A stretch of 64,000 bases of DNA from Liolophura sinensis (lineage: Eukaryota; Mollusca; Polyplacophora; Chitonida; Chitonidae). The stretch is taken from assembly GCF_032854445.1 (NCBI RefSeq), contig NC_088302.1, positions 15,247,338-15,311,337 of the forward strand, written 5' to 3'. Each line of letters opens with the position of its first letter. The first letter of the stretch is position 1. The position numbers and the translations under genes are program-made. The notes under the pieces were generated by a model, which saw only the letters and a list, made by a program, of their open reading frames with translations, was not told the DNA's origin and did no database searches. Below, piece after piece: positions 1,410-57,340 of the stretch.

Positions 1410-2865
1410 ACTTTGTGTACACCTATAGGTCCACTTCCATGTACAGACTTTTTGTACATCTATAGGCCCCCTTCCAGAGACCTTGTGTTTCTCTGTAGGT
1501 CCACTTCCACATACACTTTTTGTGCTCATCTATAGGCCCACTCCCATGTATACAGGCTTTGTGATCATCTATAGGCCCACTCCCATGTATACAGGCTTTG
1601 TGTTCATCTGTAGGCCCACTCCCATGTATACAGGTTTTGTGATCATCTATAGGCCCACTCCCATGTATACAGGCTTTGTGATCATCTATAGGCCCACTCC
1701 CATGTATACAGGCTTGTGATCATCTATAGTCCCACTCCCACGTATACAGGCTTTGTGTTCATCTATAGTCCCACTCCTATTGTATACAGGCTTTGTGATC
1801 ATCTATAGGCCCACTCCCATGTATACAGGCTTTGTGATCATCTATAGGCCCACTCCCATGTGTATAGGCTTTGTGATCATCTATAGGCCCACTCCCATGT
1901 ATACAGGCTTTGTGATCATCTATACGCTCATTCCCATGTGTATAGGCTTTGTGATCATCTATAGGCCCACTCCCATGTATACAGGCTTTGTGATCATCTA
2001 TAGTCCAACTCCCACGTATACAAGCTTTGTGTTCATCTATAGCCCCACTCCCATGTGTATAGGCTTTGTGATCATCTATAGGCCCACTCCCATGTATACA
2101 AGCTTTGTGATCATCTATAGGCCCACTCCCATGTATACAGGTTTTGTGTCATCTATAGGCCCACTCCCATGTGTATAGGCTTTGTGATCATCTATAGGCC
2201 CACTCCCATGTGTACAGGCTTTGTGATCATCTATAGGCCCACTCCCATTTATACAGGCTTTGTGTTCATCTATAGGCCCACTCCCATGTATACAGGCTTT
2301 GTGATCATCTATAGTCCCACTCCCATGTATACAGGCTTTGTGTTCATCTATAGTCCTACTCCCATGTATACAGGCTTTGTGATCATCTATAGTCCCACTC
2401 CCATGTATACAGGCTTTGTGATCATCTATAGGCCCACTCCCATGTATACAGGCTTTGTGATCATCTATAGGCCCACTCCTATGTATACAGGCTTTGTGAT
2501 CATCTATAGGCCCACTCCCATGTGTATAGGCTTTGTGATCATGCTTTGTGTTCATCTATAGTCCCACTCCCATGTATACAGGCTTTGTGATCATCTATAG
2601 TCCCACTCCCATGTATACAGGCTTTGTGATCATCTATAGTCCCACTCCCATGTATACAGGCTTTGTGATCATCTATAGGCCCACTCCTATGTATACAGGC
2701 TTTGTGATCATCTATAGGCCCACTCCCATGTGTATAGGCTTTGTGATCATCTATAGGCCTACTCCCATGTGTATAGGCTTTGTGATCATCTATAGTCCCA
2801 CTCCCATGTATACAAGCTTTGTGATCATCTATAGGCCCACTCCTACGTATACAGACATTGTGTTC
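1410..2865. repeat. 39-bp minisatellite array
   Basis: This is a tandem array of a 39-bp unit (core GGCTTTGTGATCATCTATAG then GCCCACTCCCATGTATACA), roughly 34 copies between about 1525 and 2860. More degenerate units lie at 1410-1525 and one truncated unit near 2540. Because 39 is 13 codons, open frames run through it on both strands (plus: FVIIYRPTPMYTG repeats; minus: a 13-residue HGSGPIDDHKACI repeat). These frames follow from the period and are not evidence of coding. Units differ mainly at G/T in the CTATAG(G/T)CCC step and ATGTATACA/ATGTGTATA. Confidence 0.9.
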
Positions 2866-2869
2866 ATCT

Positions 2870-3665
2870 GTTGGTCCACTCTCATGTATACATTGTGCTC
2901 ATCTGTTGGTCCACTTCCATATACAAATTTTGTATCTGATTTCCATATACAGACTGTGTTTATCTGTAAGCCCACTCTCATATATACAGATTCTATGTTC
3001 ATCTGTTGTTCTTCTCCACTTCCATATAAAGACTTTGTATCTGTAGGTCTACTTCCATATACAGATTTTGTATTTGGAGGTCCACTTCCATATAAAGACT
3101 TTGCATGTGTAGGCTCACTTCCATATATAGACTGTATCTGTAGGTCTACTTCCATGTATACAGAATTTGTGTTCATGTGTTGGTTCACTTCCATATAAAA
3201 ACTTTGTATTTGTGGTTCCACTTCCACATAAAATCTTTGTATGTGTAGACCCACTTCCATATACAGACTTTGTATTTGTGATTCCACTTCCACATAAAAA
3301 CTTTGTATCTGTAGGTGCACTTCCATATAAAGATTTTGTATGTGTAGACTTTGTATGTATAGGTCCACTTCCATATACAGACTTTTGAGTATCTGTAGGT
3401 CCACTTCCGTGTACAGACTTTGTATATATACGCCCACTTCCATATACAGACATTGTATTTGTTGGTCTACTTCCATATACAGACTTTGTATCTGTAGGTC
3501 CACTTCCATATAAAGATTTTGTATGTGTAGGACTTTGTATGTATAGGTCCACTTCCATATACAGACTTTGTGTATCTGTAGGTCCACTTCCATGTACAGA
3601 CTTTGTATATATACGCCCACTTCCATATACAGACTTTGTATTTGTTGGTCTACTTCCATATACAG
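2870..3665. repeat. 33-bp derived minisatellite array
   Basis: The array continues rightward as a shorter related unit of about 33 bp (GGTCCACTTCCATATACAGA then CTTTGTATCTGTA), about 24 degenerate copies. Compared with the 39-bp unit it has lost the GATCATC segment. Its period is 11 codons, giving an open minus-strand frame of 276 codons (SLYMEVDLQIQ repeats), again an expected by-product. Units here are more diverged than the 39-bp core. Confidence 0.85.
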
Positions 3666-8433: not shown

Positions 8434-8760
8434 AGCAAGGTACGTTCAAAAGTCAGACTCACCAGGCCACAGATCCCAGATGATACGCAACCCTAATTCC
8501 TGCACCCACAAGAAACGATTACTGAAACAGGAAAACTCTGTACAAGTAAACTAGTCAGAGGCAAAATCCAAAAACTGTACTGTAGCTCACACCAAGGGAG
8601 ACAACTCCAACATAATTCTAGAAATTCTAAAACTGGAGTTTCAGTGTCCCGTCTCATAACTCAGAACATCTATATACAGATGTAGAAATACATTGGTAGA
8701 AGTTTTACCAGAAAAGGAGGCTATGGAAAGAACAACGTCTCAAAATGTCTTTCAAAGCGG

Positions 8761-9132
8761 GATTTTCTGTGTAAACCAAAACGACGGGGGCACAGTGCCC
8801 CCAGAGTCTACAATCATTTCAAAATGGAGGGGCTATACATACTAAAAGATATTCTGGTAAAAGGGGATTTTATGTGCAAACTGGACTTTAAAGATACTTA
8901 TCTCTGTGTGCCAGTAGCAACCTCAGACAGAAAATTCCTTACATTTGAATGGAAAAGGAAGTTTTACCAGTTCAAAACCCTTCCATTCGGCCTTTCATCG
9001 AGGCCCTTAGTCTTTACCAAGCTCCTAAAACCTGCTGTGTCAATAATCAGGAGATTAGGAGTCCGAATGATAATATATCGGAACGACATGCTTGTTGTAG
9101 CGGAAAATCAGTACAAATTAATCCAAGCATAA
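8761..9132 (+). pseudogene. DIRS reverse transcriptase fragment
   Basis: Open from at least 8761: VYNHFKMEGLYILKDILVKG then KLDFKDTY (motif A region), LPFGLSS and VFTKLLKP (motif B region), and IYRNDML at the place of the catalytic Y-x-D-D. The first Asp of the pair is replaced by Asn, so polymerase activity is not expected. A stop at 9130 truncates the frame; homology continues frameshifted as FLGFLIDSVKM near 9205-9240. Family identification rests on these DIRS/YR-element RT motifs. Confidence 0.85.
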
Positions 9133-13126: not shown

Positions 13127-13491
13127 ATGGAGACAACAGGAGAACACGAGAAGGAAAATCTCCATGAAGCATTACTGCCTGAGATAAGTGGAGCAGAGAC
13201 TGAGCTAAGTGGAGCAGAGGCTTTACCTTCGCATGCGTTACATACAGCATCAGGGGCCAGTGCTTCCAATTCACTGTTCAGTGATGGGAAAGACACCGAA
13301 GCTCCACCAGACCAAATTGCTATCGACTCACACTCTTCTATGGAGAATAAAATGATGTGCCAACCTTTGATCAGCAGTTTTACACGTGCTTCTCAAATCA
13401 ATATTGAAATGGATACAATTGTTACAGTAGAAGTAAACCAACAAAACAGACCAGAAAGAGATTCTAGAAGTCTATCCACAAGTGTACTCAG
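13127..13491 (+). CDS. MARCHF2/3-like: MARCH-like gene, coding exon 1
   Basis: Encodes residues 1-121 plus two bases of codon 122 and ends CTCAG|GTCAGT. Ser/Glu-rich with no domain; a short internal repeat (ISGAETELSGAEAL) is visible. The exon probably starts at 12953 with 5' UTR. Confidence 0.75.
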
Positions 13492-16400
13492 GTCAGTGGG
13501 AATCTTCTTTCCTCTTTCCTTTGTCTATAGAGATAGGGGTCACATACATATTACATGCCATGTCTCTTTAACTTGACATCATATGCCTAAATATATTATA
13601 TATATAAGTATGATTTTGTATGCTTGATTTCCATGTTTTTAATCAAGCATTTAACTTTGACAGAGGAATGTGCAAATGTATATATCGGTATGTGTATCTG
13701 AAAACAACGGTCATTTTAAGGCTGATAAACAAAGGTGAAAAAAGCTGTGTAAAAATATATCAAGTGAGCTTTCAGGAGCCTCTCATCAATGTGGTCGCTT
13801 TGAGTTCAAGGCCAGCTCATGCTGGCTTCCTCTTTGTAATATGTGTGGGTGGGAAATACTCTTGAGTACAGCATGAACACTAATCAGATAAATAAATAAA
13901 TCAAAGCATTTGATTAACTGCATGGCTTCATTTGAAAGATCCATGTCCTTAGATTGAACATGCAGGGTATTGGTAGTAAATTAAATACTTCTTAGTGTTC
14001 TGATTTACATTATTACATACTATCTCATCTTAATGTGACCAAAACCTATGGAATTGTACATTGATGAGAAGTTAACCAAGTCTGTTTACTGTTCCTGGTG
14101 TAGCACCACAAGTGACGGTGCAATCTGTCGTATCTGTCACGATGGGGAAGAGAATGAAGACCTGCTGTCACCATGTCATTGCACCGGCACCGTGGGGCTG
14201 CTACACCTGAGCTGCCTGGAGAAGTGGCTGGGATCCTCTAGCAGGACACGCTGTGAGCTGTGTGGCTTTGAGTACACAGTGGACACCCAGCCTAAACCGT
14301 TTATTGAAGTAAAATTGCATTTCTTATATATACCTGTATGTGTTACACATAATATATATGACTGAAAAATTGTTAAAACGTTAAAACCAAAGCATACAAA
14401 ATATATTGAAAAAAATGGGCATTAGCTGCAGTTGAGCTGAATTAACTTCTTTATTTATTTGAAATTGATTCCTGTTTTTAAAGCAAACTCAACAGTACTT
14501 TTTTGCTTTCACTTTTGGTTGTAAATATGGTAAAGTTCAGATGATTCATACCAACTACAGATTGTATAAGTTAGTTCTGAAATAATAGTTCTAGTGTAAC
14601 TTTCAAAAACTTGATTTCCTACTCGTATAACCATCTCTTTGTTTTTGTGTCTCCAGTGGGTACGCCATCCGTCCTCTGTTAGTGACCGTCGAAATGTGAT
14701 CTGTGATATGTGTTGCTTCTTCCTGCTCACACCACTGGCTACCATCAGCTCCTGGCTCTGTCTGGTCGGGGCCAAGTATTATTCCTACTGGACAGGTCGC
14801 TGGGAAGTGCCTGGGCTGATCTCACTCACAATCTTCCTTATCTTCATCTACCTCACCTGGTGTCTGGTAAGTTATCGCAACTCTCACGGTCCTCCTCATC
14901 TGTGTCTACCTCACCTGGTGTCTGGTAAGTCATCGCAACTCTGACTGTCTTTCTCATCTGTGTCTACCTCACCTGGTGTCTGGTAAGTCATTGCAACTCT
15001 CACTGTCCTCCTCATCTGTATCTACCTCACCTGATGTCTGGTAAGTTATCGCAACTCTCACGGTCTTCCTCATCTGTGTCTACCTCATCTGTGTCTACCT
15101 CACCTGGTGTCTGGTAAGTTATCACGACTCCCACTGTCTTCCTCATCTGTATCTACCTCACCTGATGTCTGGTCAGTTATCGTAACTCTCACGGTCCTCC
15201 TCATCTGTGTCTACCTCACCTGGTGTCTGGTAAGTTATCACAGCTCTCACTGTCTTCCTCATCTGTGTCTACCACACCTGGTGTCTGGTAAGTCATTGCA
15301 ACTCTCACTGTCTTCCTCATCTGTGTCTACCTCACCTTCTGTCTGGTAAGTTATCGTAACTCTCACTGTCTTCCTCATCTGTATCTACCTCACCTGGTGT
15401 CTGGTAAGTTATCACAACTCTCACGGTCCTCCTCATCTGTGTCTACCTCACCTGGTGTCTGGTAAGTCATCGCAACTCTCACTGTCTTTCTCATCTGTGT
15501 CTACCTCACCTGGTGTCTGGTAAGTCATTGCAACTCTCACGGTCTTCCTCATCTGTGTCTACCTCATTTGTGTCTACCTCACCTGGTGTCTGGTAAGTTA
15601 TCACAACTCCCACTGTCTTCCTCATCTGTATCTACCTCACCTGATGTCTGGTAAGTTATCGTAACTCTCACGGTCCTCCTCATCTGTGTCTACCTCACCT
15701 GGTGTCTGGTAAGTCATTGCAACTCTCACTGTCTCCCTCATCTGTGTCTACCTCACCTTCTGTCTGGTAAGTTATCGCAACTCTCACTGTCTTCCTCATC
15801 TGTGTCTACCACACCTGGTGTCTGGTAAGTTATCACAACTCTCACTGTCTTCCTCATCTGTATCTACCTCACCTGATGTCTGGTAAGTTATCGTAACTCT
15901 CACTGTCTTCCTCATCTGTATCTACCTCACCTGATGTCTGGTAAGTTATCACAACTCCCACTGTCTTCCTCATCTGTGTCTACCTCACCTGATGTCTGGT
16001 AAGTTATCGCAACTCTCACGGTCTTCCTCATCTGTGTCTACCTCATCTGTGTCTACCTCACCTGGTGTCTGGTAAGTTATCACGACTCCCACTGTCTTCC
16101 TCATCTGTATCTACCTCACCTGATGTCTGGTCAGTTATCGTAACTCTCACGGTCCTCCTCATCTGTGTCCACCTCACCTGGTGTCTGGTAAGTCATAGCA
16201 ACTCTCACTGTCTTCCTCATCTGTGTCTACCTCACCTTCTGTCTGGTAAGTTATCGTAACTCTCACTGTCTTCCTCATCTGTATCTACCTCACCTGGTGT
16301 CTGGTAAGTTATCACAACTCTCACGGTCCTCCTCATCTGTGTCTACCTCACCTGGTGTCTGGTAAGTCATCGCAACTCTCACTGTCTTCCTCATCTGTGT

Positions 16401-19400
16401 CTACCTCACCTGGTGTCTGGTAAGTCATTGCAACTCTCACGGTCTTCCTCATCTGTGTCTACCTCATTTGTGTCTACCTCACCTGGTGTCTGGTAAGTTA
16501 TCACAACTCCCACTGTCTTCCTCATCTGTATCTACCTCACCTGATGTCTGGTAAGTTATCGTAACTCTCACGGTCCTCCTCATCTGTGTCTACCTCACCT
16601 GGTGTCTGGTAAGTCATTGCAACTCTCACTGTCTCCCTCATCTGTGTCTACCTCACCTTCTGTCTGGTAAGTTATCGCAACTCTCACTGTCTTCCTCATC
16701 TGTGTCTACCACACCTGGTGTCTGGTAAGTTATCACAACTCTCACTGTCTTCCTCATCTGTATCTACCTCACCTGATGTCTGGTAAGTTATCGTAACTCT
16801 CACTGTCTTCCTCATCTGTATCTACCTCACCTGATGTCTGGTAAGTTATCACAACTCCCACTGTCTTCCTCATCTGTGTCTACCTCACCTGATGTCTGGT
16901 AAGTTATCGTAACTCTCACTGTCTTCCTCATCTGTATCTACCTCACCTGGTGTCTGGTAAGTTATCACAACTCCCACTGTCTTCCTCATCTGTGTCTACC
17001 TCACCTGATGTCTGGTAAGTTATTGTAACTCTCACTGTCTTCCTCATCTGTATCTACTTCACCTGATGTCTGGTAAGTTATCGTAACTCTCACGGTCCTC
17101 CTCATCTGTGTCTACCTCACCTGGTGTCTGGTAAGTTATCACAGCTCTCACTGTCTTCCTCATCTGTGTCTACCTCACCTGGTGTCTGGTAAGTCATTGC
17201 AACTCTCACTGTTCTCCTCATCTGTATCTACCTCACCTGATATCTGGTAAGTTATCGTAACTCTCACTGTCTTCCTCATCTGTATCTACTTCACCTGATG
17301 TCTGGTAAGTTATCACAACTCTCACTGTCTTTCTCATCTGTGTCTACCTCACCTGGTGTCTGGTAAGTCATTGCAACTCTCACTGTTCTCCTCATCTGTA
17401 TCTACCTCACCTGATGTCTGGTAAGTTATCGCAACTCTCACTGTCTTCCTCATCTGTATCTACTTCACCTGATGTCTGGTAAGTTATCGTAACTCTCACG
17501 GTCCTCCTCATCTGTGTCTACCTCACCTGGTGTCTGGTAAGTTATCACAGCTCTCACTGTCTTCCTCATCTGTGTCTACCTCACCTGGTGTCTGGTAAGT
17601 TATCGTAACTCTCACTGTCTTCGTCGTCTGTGTCTACCTCACCTGGTGTCTGGTAAGTTATCACAACTCCCACTGTCTTCCTCATCTGTATCTACCTCAC
17701 CTGGTGTCTGGTAAGTTATCACAGCTCTCACTGTCTTCCTCATCTGTGTCTACCTCACCTGCTGTCTGGTAAGTTATCGTAACTCTCACTGTCTTCCTCA
17801 TCTGTGTCTACCTCACCTGATGTCTGGTAAGTTATCACAACTCCCACTGTCTTCCTCATCTGTATCTACCTCACCTGATGTCTGGTAAGTTATTGTAACT
17901 CTCACTGTCTTCCTCATCTGTGTCTACCTCACCTGCTGTCTGGTAAGTCATCGCAACTCTCACTGTCTTCCTCATCTGTGTCTACCTCACCTGATGTCTG
18001 GTAAGTTATCACAACTCTCACGGTCCTCCTCATTTGTGTCTACCTCACCTGGTGTCTGGTAAGTTATCGCAATACTCACTGTCTTCCTCATCTGTATCTA
18101 CCTCACCTGGTGTCTGGTAAGTAATTGCAACTCTCACTGTCTTCCTCATCTGTGTCTACCTCACCTGGTGTCTGGTAAGTTATCACAACTCTCACTGTCT
18201 TCCTCATCTGTGTCTACCTCACCTGATGTCTGGTAAGTTATCGCAACTCTCACTGTCTTCCTCATCTGTGTCTACCTCACTTGGTGTCTGGTGAGTTATC
18301 GCAACTCTCACTGTCTTTCTCATCTGTGTCTACCTCACCTGGTGTCTGGTAAGTTATCGCAACTCTCACTGTCTTCCTCATCTGTGTCCAACTCACCTGG
18401 TGTCTGGTAAGTTATCACAACTCTCACGGTCCTCCTCATCTGTGTCTACCTCACCTTCTGTCTGGTAAGTTATCGCAACTCTCACTGTCTTCCTCATCTG
18501 TGTCTACCTCACCTGGTGTCTGGTAAGTTATCACAACTCTCACTGTCTCCCTCATCTGTATCTACCTCACCTTCTGTCTGGTAAGTTATCACAACTCTCA
18601 CTGTCTTCCTCATCTGTGTCTACCTCACCTGATGTCTGGTAAGTTATCACAACTCACTAACCATGTTTACAGTTCTGTCATTGTCTCCCATATCTGTGTT
18701 TACCTCATCTTTTATCTGGTATAAAGTGATCAATTTTTAACAGACTCACTGTCTCTTCATCTGTATACAACTCACCTGTTGTCTCACATTAAGTTGATTT
18801 GTCAAGGCATGCAGTTTCACCTCTTATTGTCAATCCATCATACCAAATTGGCATCTTGACATTTTTATTTTATTTTCTTGCCTTTTATTAGCATATTTTA
18901 GGTATAAAGACACTTCTGTTATTCATATATTAACTCTGTTTTGATTGTCTGGGTTCATAGGTGGTGGTCAGATATCACTATCGTATCTGGCTGGAGTGGA
19001 AGCGTCACAACCAGATTGTGCGGATCCGTGCTGTCAGACGAGGGAATGTAGTTAGGCGGAATCTGACTTCATCCACAGGGAGTCAACTCCTCAATTGTGA
19101 CAGCAGCCTGAGGAGCAGGACCAGCCCTGTCAGGGAGCCTCAGGCTGAAGACAACAATAACAATGCCTCTATATTGCTGGTGGACGAGGAGGAGGAAGAA
19201 GATGTCATTGTCGAGGTTACTGGAGGTGCTGGGCAGAGAGGATCCTACCGTCTCCTGTCTGACTCCAGTAACCTTGTCTGCAGCCCGAACAAACTGCCCC
19301 GACACCGACACAGCTCCTCATCCAGTCAAAGGTCTAAGTTACACTCCACCAGCTTCAGCCCAAGCCGACCCAACCCCCGGAATTCCAGTACGTCGTCAGC

Positions 19401-19638
19401 AGAAGGGGAGATAACTGCGCCCCTCCTGGGAGCTACCTCGGGTAGAGAGCCCTCCTGGGGCAGACAGTGTGTCAGTCGCTCTCTAATGCTTGACCCAGGG
19501 TTCTCAGAGCCACAGTCAATGTCTGTTCACTCCACCGTTGTCACCTACCAGCACATTACCGATGATGTTTTCACAACTCTGACAGACCCAGACAGGTTCA
19601 CAAGAAAGACAGGCAGAGTCAAAGAGAGTTTTGTGTAA
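13127..19638 (+). CDS. MARCHF2/3-like: MARCH-type membrane RING-CH E3 ubiquitin ligase (MARCHF2/3-like), four coding exons
   Basis: Exons 13127-13491, 14104-14308, 14657-14866 and 18961-19638 join in frame to 485 aa. Residues 130-175 fit C-x2-C-x12-C-x-C-x7-H-x2-C-x12-C-x2-C, the RING-CH (C4HC3) finger. Two membrane spans follow at about 204-228 (LLTPLATISSWLCL) and 242-263 (IFLIFIYLTWCL), then RYHYRIWLEWKRHNQ, the MARCHF2/3 layout. Vertebrate MARCHF2/3 are about 250 aa, so this one has a long N-terminal tail and a ~200-aa Ser-rich acidic C-terminal tail (both disordered by eye). It ends ESFV, fitting a class I PDZ ligand; MARCHF2 is reported to use a C-terminal PDZ ligand. Expected role: E2-dependent ubiquitination of membrane cargo in endosomal or plasma membranes. 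The start follows in-frame stops (last at 13049) and has G at +4. Intron 3 holds an unusual donor-site array. Confidence 0.92.
13768..13905 (+). repeat. SINE-like family A, internally deleted copy in MARCH intron 1
   Basis: The head (GAGCCTCTCATCAATGTGGT, GCTCATGCTGGCTTCCTC) is joined directly to the tail (CTTGAGTACAGCATGAACAC, AAATAAATAAAT), skipping the middle found in the full copy near 22.5 kb. Same orientation as the gene. Confidence 0.7.
14104..14308 (+). CDS. MARCHF2/3-like: MARCH-like gene, coding exon 2 (RING-CH)
   Basis: The acceptor CTGTTCCTGGTGTAG|CACC completes the split Ser codon. A second in-frame acceptor lies nine bases downstream (CACAAG|TGAC) and would drop three residues. 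The exon carries all eight zinc ligands and ends ATT GAA|GTAAAA. Confidence 0.9.
14657..14866 (+). CDS. MARCHF2/3-like: MARCH-like gene, coding exon 3 (both membrane spans)
   Basis: Begins WVRHPS after TGTCTCCAG and ends TGG TGT CTG|GTAAGT, phase 0 at both ends. Its last 42 bases (14825-14866, LTIFLIFIYLTWCL) together with the first 16 intron bases are unit zero of the 58-bp tandem array that fills the next intron. Confidence 0.92.
14825..18800 (+). repeat. 58-bp tandem array carrying exon-end plus 5' splice site copies
   Basis: Units start at the last 42 nt of exon 3 and run 16 nt into the intron (core TCTACCTCACCTGGTGTCTG|GTAAGT). Successive donors are 58 nt apart (14867, 14925 and on). 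About 65 units run to about 18660, four with a 15-bp internal duplication (near 15086, 15566, 16046, 16466). Two decayed units lie at 18680-18728 and 18747-18795, where GTAAGT is lost. Nearly all other units keep GTAAGT; exceptions include GTCAGT (near 15170 and 16130) and GTGAGT (near 18290). A block at about 15300-15960 recurs at 16200-16860, 900 bp later, almost identically. 58 is not a multiple of three, so each added unit shifts frame. Confidence 0.95.
18961..19638 (+). CDS. MARCHF2/3-like: MARCH-like gene, last coding exon
   Basis: Begins GTGGTGGTC directly after GGGTTCATAG with RYHYRIWLEWKRHNQIVRI, the conserved post-membrane helix of MARCHF2/3. It continues as a 200-residue low-complexity tail with an N-run, an acidic run (DEEEEEDVIVEV) and Ser-rich segments, ending KESFV-stop, a possible PDZ ligand. 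Confidence 0.9.
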   Translation: MVVRYHYRIWLEWKRHNQIVRIRAVRRGNVVRRNLTSSTGSQLLNCDSSLRSRTSPVREPQAEDNNNNASILLVDEEEEEDVIVEVTGGAGQRGSYRLLSDSSNLVCSPNKLPRHRHSSSSSQRSKLHSTSFSPSRPNPRNSSTSSAEGEITAPLLGATSGREPSWGRQCVSRSLMLDPGFSEPQSMSVHSTVVTYQHITDDVFTTLTDPDRFTRKTGRVKESFV

Positions 19639-26981: not shown

Positions 26982-27200
26982 GTAGCCTACTCGATACAGT
27001 TCCCGAGGGGCAGTTGGTCTACCCGACGGTTTTCCGGGGAATAAATTTAACAGTAAGTCTACTCGATGCAGCTCCCAAGAGACCTAGTTGTTCCACCTGA
27101 TGTTTTTCCCGGGGGATAAGTTTATTCGTAAGTCTACTCGATGTAGTTTCCTAGAGACGTGTTCGTTCTACCCGATGATCTTCCCGAAGAGTCATTAAGA
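26982..27200. repeat. three-unit tandem repeat of about 73 bp
   Basis: Three diverged units start at 26982, 27053 and 27128. Each begins GTA(A/G)(G/C)(T/C)CTACTCGAT and continues CAG(T/C)TCC...CC(C/T)GA(C/T)G...TTCCCG. Units are 71 and 75 bp where measurable. No coding sense. Confidence 0.75.
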
Positions 27201-56780: not shown

Positions 56781-57340
56781 TAGCTCTGCGGTCCTGGATA
56801 TGAATAGGTTTTTGGAGTCCACTTCCTCTCTATTGTGGATTAGGACATGTTTTTGGATTCTACCCTATCTTTTACAGATGTCGACGTAATTCTGGATTCT
56901 ATCCTACATGTTGTTGACTTGAACATGTTTTTGTATTCTATATTCCCTGTTGCGGATTTGGACACGATTTTGGATTCTATCGTCCCTATTGTCAGATTTT
57001 GATTTCTGTTCTCCGTGCTGCAGATTTGGACATGTTTTTTCCCTACCTACTTGTTGTTAATCTGGACATCCTTTTGGAGCCCATCTTACCTGTTGTTCAT
57101 TTTGACATGCTTTTGGGCTCTGTCCTATACCTATTGTGAACTTTGACATGCTTTTGGGTTCTGTCCTATACTTATTGTGAACTTTGACATGCTTTTGGGT
57201 TCTATCCTATACTTATTGTGAACTTTGACATGCTTTTGGGTTCTATCCTATACATGTTGTGAACTTTGACATGCTTTGGGGTTCTATTCTATACCCATTG
57301 TGGATTTTCACCTGCTTTTGGGTTCTATCTGCCCTATGCA
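56780..57340. repeat. 41-bp minisatellite with a homogeneous core
   Basis: Unit core TTTGACATGCTTTTGGGTTC then TATCCTATACTTATTGTGAAC. Exact 41-bp spacing is seen at 57104, 57145, 57186 and 57227. Units become increasingly diverged toward 56780, giving about 13 recognisable copies. It lies in the presumed intron of the 53.6-kb gene or in its flank. Confidence 0.85.

Follow-up and report, generated by a model that had tools for sequence, protein, structure and literature searches.

What is an intron to do with some 65 copies of its own 5' splice site? This question is raised by a predicted gene of the MARCH type in the mollusc Liolophura sinensis (RefSeq assembly GCF_032854445.1, contig NC_088302.1), which lies in the 64,000-nucleotide stretch analysed here (contig positions 15,247,338 to 15,311,337; hereafter the window). 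All coordinates below are those of the window, and both the gene and the array are on its forward strand. The third intron of this gene opens with a tandem array whose unit consists of the end of exon 3 and the beginning of intron 3, so that a near-identical donor site is carried by each unit. The original prediction had described about 65 such units of 58 bp inside a MARCH-gene intron and had named three possible roles for them: a sink for the U1 small nuclear ribonucleoprotein (snRNP), a poison-splicing regulator, or none. We consider the last of these the likeliest. In our reading, to which we give a probability of about 0.73, the array is a minisatellite that was founded by a duplication of the exon 3/intron 3 junction, was spread by unequal exchange and is largely neutral.

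The array and its host gene

Tandem Repeats Finder reported one tandem array at 14825-18655, with a period of 58, 65.0 copies and 86% matches. A direct count gave 65 donors of the form CTG/GTNAGT (the slash marks the exon end), the first with its exon end at 14866 and the last at 18638. The predicted predominance of GTAAGT with rare variants was borne out: this hexamer is found in 62 donors, GTCAGT in two (15171 and 16129) and GTGAGT in one (18290). The 64 spacings between donors are of 58 bp in 60 cases and of 73 bp in four, and none is longer than 73 bp, therefore every unit within the array has a donor motif. Unit borders were set by cutting at each CTG/GTNAGT motif, which yielded 65 units over the 3.8 kb of 14825-18654, 61 of them 58 bp and four 73 bp in length. 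The 73-bp units (15057-15129, 15536-15608, 16015-16087 and 16436-16508) are 58-bp units with a 15-bp internal duplication, and they are pairwise alike in the duplicated blocks described below.

Unit 0 (14825-14882) is composed of the last 42 coding bases of exon 3 and 16 bases of the intron, with the frame-preserving donor CTG/GTAAGT at 14866/14867, and it is followed by units 1-64 at 14883-18654. The 16 exon bases preceding 14825 agree with the intronic bases of the unit in just 4 of 16 positions, therefore the likeness to the unit begins at about 14825, and both the expected register and the expected start of the array are thus correct. The expected end at 18800 is not, as the regular array stops at about 18655 and is followed by two decayed units (between 18678 and 18795), neither of which has the donor consensus. 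In each of them, three extra bases are inserted within or next to the donor; in the copy at 18678-18731 this insertion breaks the site (CTGGTATAAAGT), and in the copy at 18745-18795 the site is broken by the insertion together with the loss of GG. Decayed edge units are usual in tandem arrays, and those found here fit this pattern. A BLASTN search of the window (E up to 1) for further copies of the unit beyond 14000-18700 gave just the second decayed unit, at 18745-18784. With head-to-tail units of 58 bp in 65 copies, the array falls within the range of about 10-100 bp per unit by which minisatellites are recognized. Moreover, its first unit holds the donor of a coding exon, as predicted from sequence, and the consensus GTNAGT is present in 65/65 units of the array proper; these are among the properties of a donor-spanning variable number tandem repeat (VNTR).

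The exon borders of the host gene were read from open reading frames (ORFs) and splice signals. Predicted coding exon 1 (13127-13491) ends at the donor AG/GTCAGT and its frame closes with exon 2 (14104-14308), which encodes a RINGv domain (Pfam PF12906, residues 130-175 of the joined protein). Exon 3 (14657-14866) has 70 codons, among them two hydrophobic stretches judged by eye, and enters its donor in phase 0. Exon 4 (18961-19638) resumes in frame at 18961, after the acceptor ...TTCATAG/GTGGTG at 18960/18961, and runs to the stop codon. Joined, these four predicted exons give a protein of 485 aa. Its RINGv match (E 2.4e-14, 53.6 bits, cut-off 21.6) is a feature by which MARCH (RING-CH) E3 ligases are recognized, and the host thus appears to be a MARCH-type (RINGv) ubiquitin-ligase gene, in agreement with the initial assignment. 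Such ligases also have two transmembrane spans downstream of the RING, for which the hydrophobic stretches of exon 3 are candidates. We take the protein to resemble MARCH2/3.

Origin and amplification of the units

The units are close relatives of one another and more distant relatives of the exon. Among units 1-64 the mean pairwise identity is 91.7% (73-bp units trimmed by 15 bp), whereas between unit 0 and units 1-64 it is 85.9%; the 65 units comprise 43 distinct sequences. At unit positions 7, 15, 20 and 21, one base is common to 64/64 repeat units and differs from that of exon 3. Position 6 is T or G in the repeats, which never show the A of the exon. The same result was obtained for these five positions in the subset of repeat units that are 58 bp long (60 units). 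Because they share bases that the exon does not have, the repeats look like descendants of one founder and not like products of repeated copying of the exon. In 22 of the 60 units of this subset, TGA stands in place of TGG, which indicates that the repeats are free of coding constraint.

Larger pieces of the array were also duplicated. A block of 520 bp (15490-16009) recurs exactly 900 bp downstream, at 16390-16909, which corresponds to an internal duplication of about 15 units; a second exact block, of 191 bp, also recurs at the lag of 900, and 10 of the 49 pairs of units at lag 15 are identical. The two GTCAGT donors are 958 bp apart (191 bp are exact at that lag) and, since both sit inside the block duplication, they are probably a single mutation that was copied.

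From these patterns the following history may be proposed. A duplication of 58 bp, with 42 exonic and 16 intronic bases, would have given the intron an additional donor. From a copy that by then differed from the exon at four or five positions, 64 units would have arisen through slippage, unequal exchange and the duplication of blocks. Throughout, the exon sequence would have been held by coding constraint, while the repeats would have lost their coding sense. These patterns support the claim that the array grew out of the exon 3/intron 3 junction.

As a separate observation, a variant of the repeated intron start (CTGGTAAGTTATCACAACT, cf. 14864-14882) matches exon 4 at 18964-18982 in 13 of 19 positions (shuffle P 0.003), and the unit 0 form matches exon 4 at 18964 in 12 of 19. 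This match was picked post hoc; it might hint at an origin of the intron by duplication, or might be due to chance.

Predicted use of the repeated donors

The consequences of using each donor were computed for n = 0-5 and n = 64, where n is the unit number. The full 485 aa are obtained from the donor at 14866 only. Donor 1, which adds 58 nt, puts exon 4 in another frame and gives a predicted product of 310 aa. For donors n of at least 2, frame reading shows that translation would be stopped by an in-frame TGA at 14942-14944, and the predicted product of donors 2-64 ends at 285 aa. The broken product predicted for each alternative donor is what had been anticipated, as was a TGA at about 14942; what had been missed is that donor 1 lies upstream of this codon and leads to the frame-shifted protein instead. 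Between the TGA and the exon junction there are 38 nt for n = 2 and at least 96 nt for n = 3-5 and n = 64. Under the customary 50-nt rule, nonsense-mediated decay would thus be expected from n = 3. A longer protein made by reading through the repeats is ruled out by the TGA at 14942.

The strength of the donors was assessed by their predicted pairing with U1, for which we used the unmodified 5' end of U1. The common array donor gave -9.1 kcal/mol, a value equal to that of donor 0. Of the array variants, GTCAGT gave -5.0 and GTGAGT -9.2 kcal/mol; the donors of exons 1 and 2 gave -9.2 and -3.3 kcal/mol, and the two decayed units -4.2 and -2.3 kcal/mol. Since the pairing is equal, most repeat donors are predicted to be as strong as the true donor, and, as originally described, dozens of them precede one acceptor. 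Other kinds of splice site were considered too. Recursive splicing (ratchet) sites were rejected, as 65/65 junctions read CTG/GT and AG never precedes GT. Within 14867-18655, 5 of 70 AG dinucleotides lie outside donors (four CACAG and one CATAG); with so few of them, formation of cryptic exons is only a minor possibility.

Donor-spanning minisatellites are already known from two human genes. In intron 18 of ABCA7, the first GT of a 25-bp VNTR is described as the exon 18 donor, alleles are given as having about 12-427 units, and use of the first repeat donor, which retains one unit out of frame, is put at 2 +/- 1%, independently of array length (PMC5954066). The chiton array resembles this VNTR, as described, in that it starts at a functional 5' splice site (a predicted one here), in that its units can supply donors, and in that the unit length is no multiple of 3 and leaves the first repeat donor out of frame. 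Unlike the 25-bp ABCA7 repeat, whose description mentions no exon sequence and whose polymorphism was measured, the chiton array has a 58-bp unit with 42 exonic bases, present in 65 copies in the assembled sequence. The other human case is IFI6 (6-16, G1P3), with a minisatellite unit that is reportedly 12 bp long. Two downstream repeat units of this gene reportedly act as donors, and three mRNA species result (Turri et al. 1995, doi 10.1093/nar/23.11.1854). Here too a minisatellite offers several splice donors in a coding transcript; however, the IFI6 unit is shorter and its variants are said to encode isoforms, whereas the alternatives at the chiton locus are predicted to truncate the protein. 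The duplicated tract includes splice signals, as in the account of intron gain by tandem genomic duplication, but there a new intron is made (PMC4974935), whereas here the donor of an existing intron was multiplied. What is distinctive about the present array is its exon-containing 58-bp unit, its copy number in this assembly and its value for the study of donor competition.

By analogy with ABCA7 and IFI6, we infer that exon definition would pair the exon 3 acceptor (14656) with the nearest donor. Exon 3 has 210 nt and is lengthened by 58 nt for each unit retained, thus the use of far donors would produce very long exons, and such exons are disfavoured under exon definition. In vertebrates, expanding exons are reported to be able to block spliceosome formation (PMC5762160), and we infer that exon definition in the chiton is of the vertebrate kind. 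Donor 0 then probably dominates splicing, and a slight leak would reach the repeat donors next to it: most mRNA would be spliced from 14866 and a few percent from unit 1 or unit 2, with the far donors almost silent. The leak products of 285-310 aa would keep the RINGv domain and lose the C-terminal tail, and they would mostly be removed or be inconsequential. The array would therefore be held by neither a strong benefit nor a strong cost.

Conservation of the donors and rival explanations

Several points weigh against a neutral array. In the donor 9-mer, 1 of 9 sites is variable, compared with 27 of 49 elsewhere in the unit (Fisher P 0.026, with 15 bp removed from each of the four 73-bp units for comparison with the consensus), and non-consensus cells number 3/576 in the 9-mer and 193/3136 outside it. 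Even in the decayed units, fewer aligned bases are changed in the donor (2/18) than in the remainder (26/98), insertions aside. On these counts, a constraint on the donor is weakly favoured. Since all common donors pair equally with U1, a strong preference for donor 0 must stem from position, and for some duplicated donors it is the one nearest the acceptor that is preferred, which is the opposite of what we predict. In ABCA7, greater array length is reported to be associated with lower expression and with increased skipping of the following exon, and is thus not neutral (PMC5954066).

The strength of this signal depends on how it is counted. By variable sites, the donor 9-mer is the best conserved of the 58 circular 9-base windows of the unit, only windows 39 and 40 having one such site or none; if non-consensus cells are counted instead, window 13 does just as well (at most 3). 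In an event-based test restricted to the 60 repeat units with a length of 58 bp (those of 73 bp, four in number, were left out), 2 of 31 distinct minor alleles fell in the donor's 9 of 58 sites, which is not significant (P 0.12). The proposed comparison of donor with remaining unit thus shows a less variable donor by sites, and no significant difference by events. The repeat units are, moreover, non-independent owing to the block duplication, and cutting at the motif kept the two decayed edge units, with their broken donors, out of both conservation counts. Control minisatellites of the window were uninformative: the 39-bp array at 1519 gave no gap-free phasing (divergence 0.38), and the arrays at 2543 and 57087 have just 8 and 5 units, respectively, so few that invariant 9-base windows arise anyway. 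We do not claim selection on the repeat donors.

One rival explanation is a poison-splicing dial, in which many transcripts use repeat donors and are truncated at the TGA at 14942 or degraded, so that unit number sets the full-length output. The broken protein predicted for each alternative donor, the site-based retention of the motif and the association of longer ABCA7 arrays with reduced expression all favour it. Nevertheless, we consider it unlikely, as the retention is nominal and not significant in the event-based test, the donor is broken in 2/2 decayed units, and single-unit retention in ABCA7, as reported, does not follow array length. The human precedents also speak against any dedicated sink or regulator, as the reported use is confined in them to one or two of the repeat donors. 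Somewhat harder still to credit is the array as a length-tunable brake, with selection keeping the donors and unit number setting what share of transcripts would lack the ligase's C-terminal tail.

The proposal of a U1 snRNP sink, or of telescripting, supposes that U1 on 62-65 sites is titrated or shields the nascent transcript from premature polyadenylation. Although there are 65 donors and the common form pairs with U1 like the true donor, this seems very improbable: intron 3 (14867-18960) contains no AATAAA or ATTAAA to suppress, with rarer signal variants not searched, and a single locus stands against the cellular abundance of U1. Finally, the real array might be shorter, longer or otherwise ordered than the assembled one. 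Unit counts of minisatellites are error-prone, and the exact repeat of 520 bp at 900 bp could itself be an assembly duplication. However, the 43 distinct units and the decayed edges mean that a diverged array exists; the doubt is limited to its exact length, and an artefact is improbable.

The surroundings are rich in minisatellites, with a long 39-bp and a degenerate 33-bp array upstream (1519-3665). Further tandem arrays are found at 26987-27186 and 56838-57329 (75 bp x 2.7, 39 bp x 4.1 and 41 bp x 5.9), and the consensus of the 75-bp array likewise terminates in AGTAAGT. A reverse-transcriptase fragment (8686-9129, PF00078, E 6.3e-9) marks a retroelement remnant that precedes the gene by about 4 kb.

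Were the brake real after all, the exon's own end would have given rise to a heritable splicing dial with a high mutation rate. The array offers a natural setting in which to ask how the spliceosome selects one of many near-identical donors, with position as nearly the sole variable. It is likely a non-human addition to the donor-spanning minisatellites of human ABCA7 and IFI6, and it suggests that the end of an exon can seed an array that fills an intron while the gene is left open.

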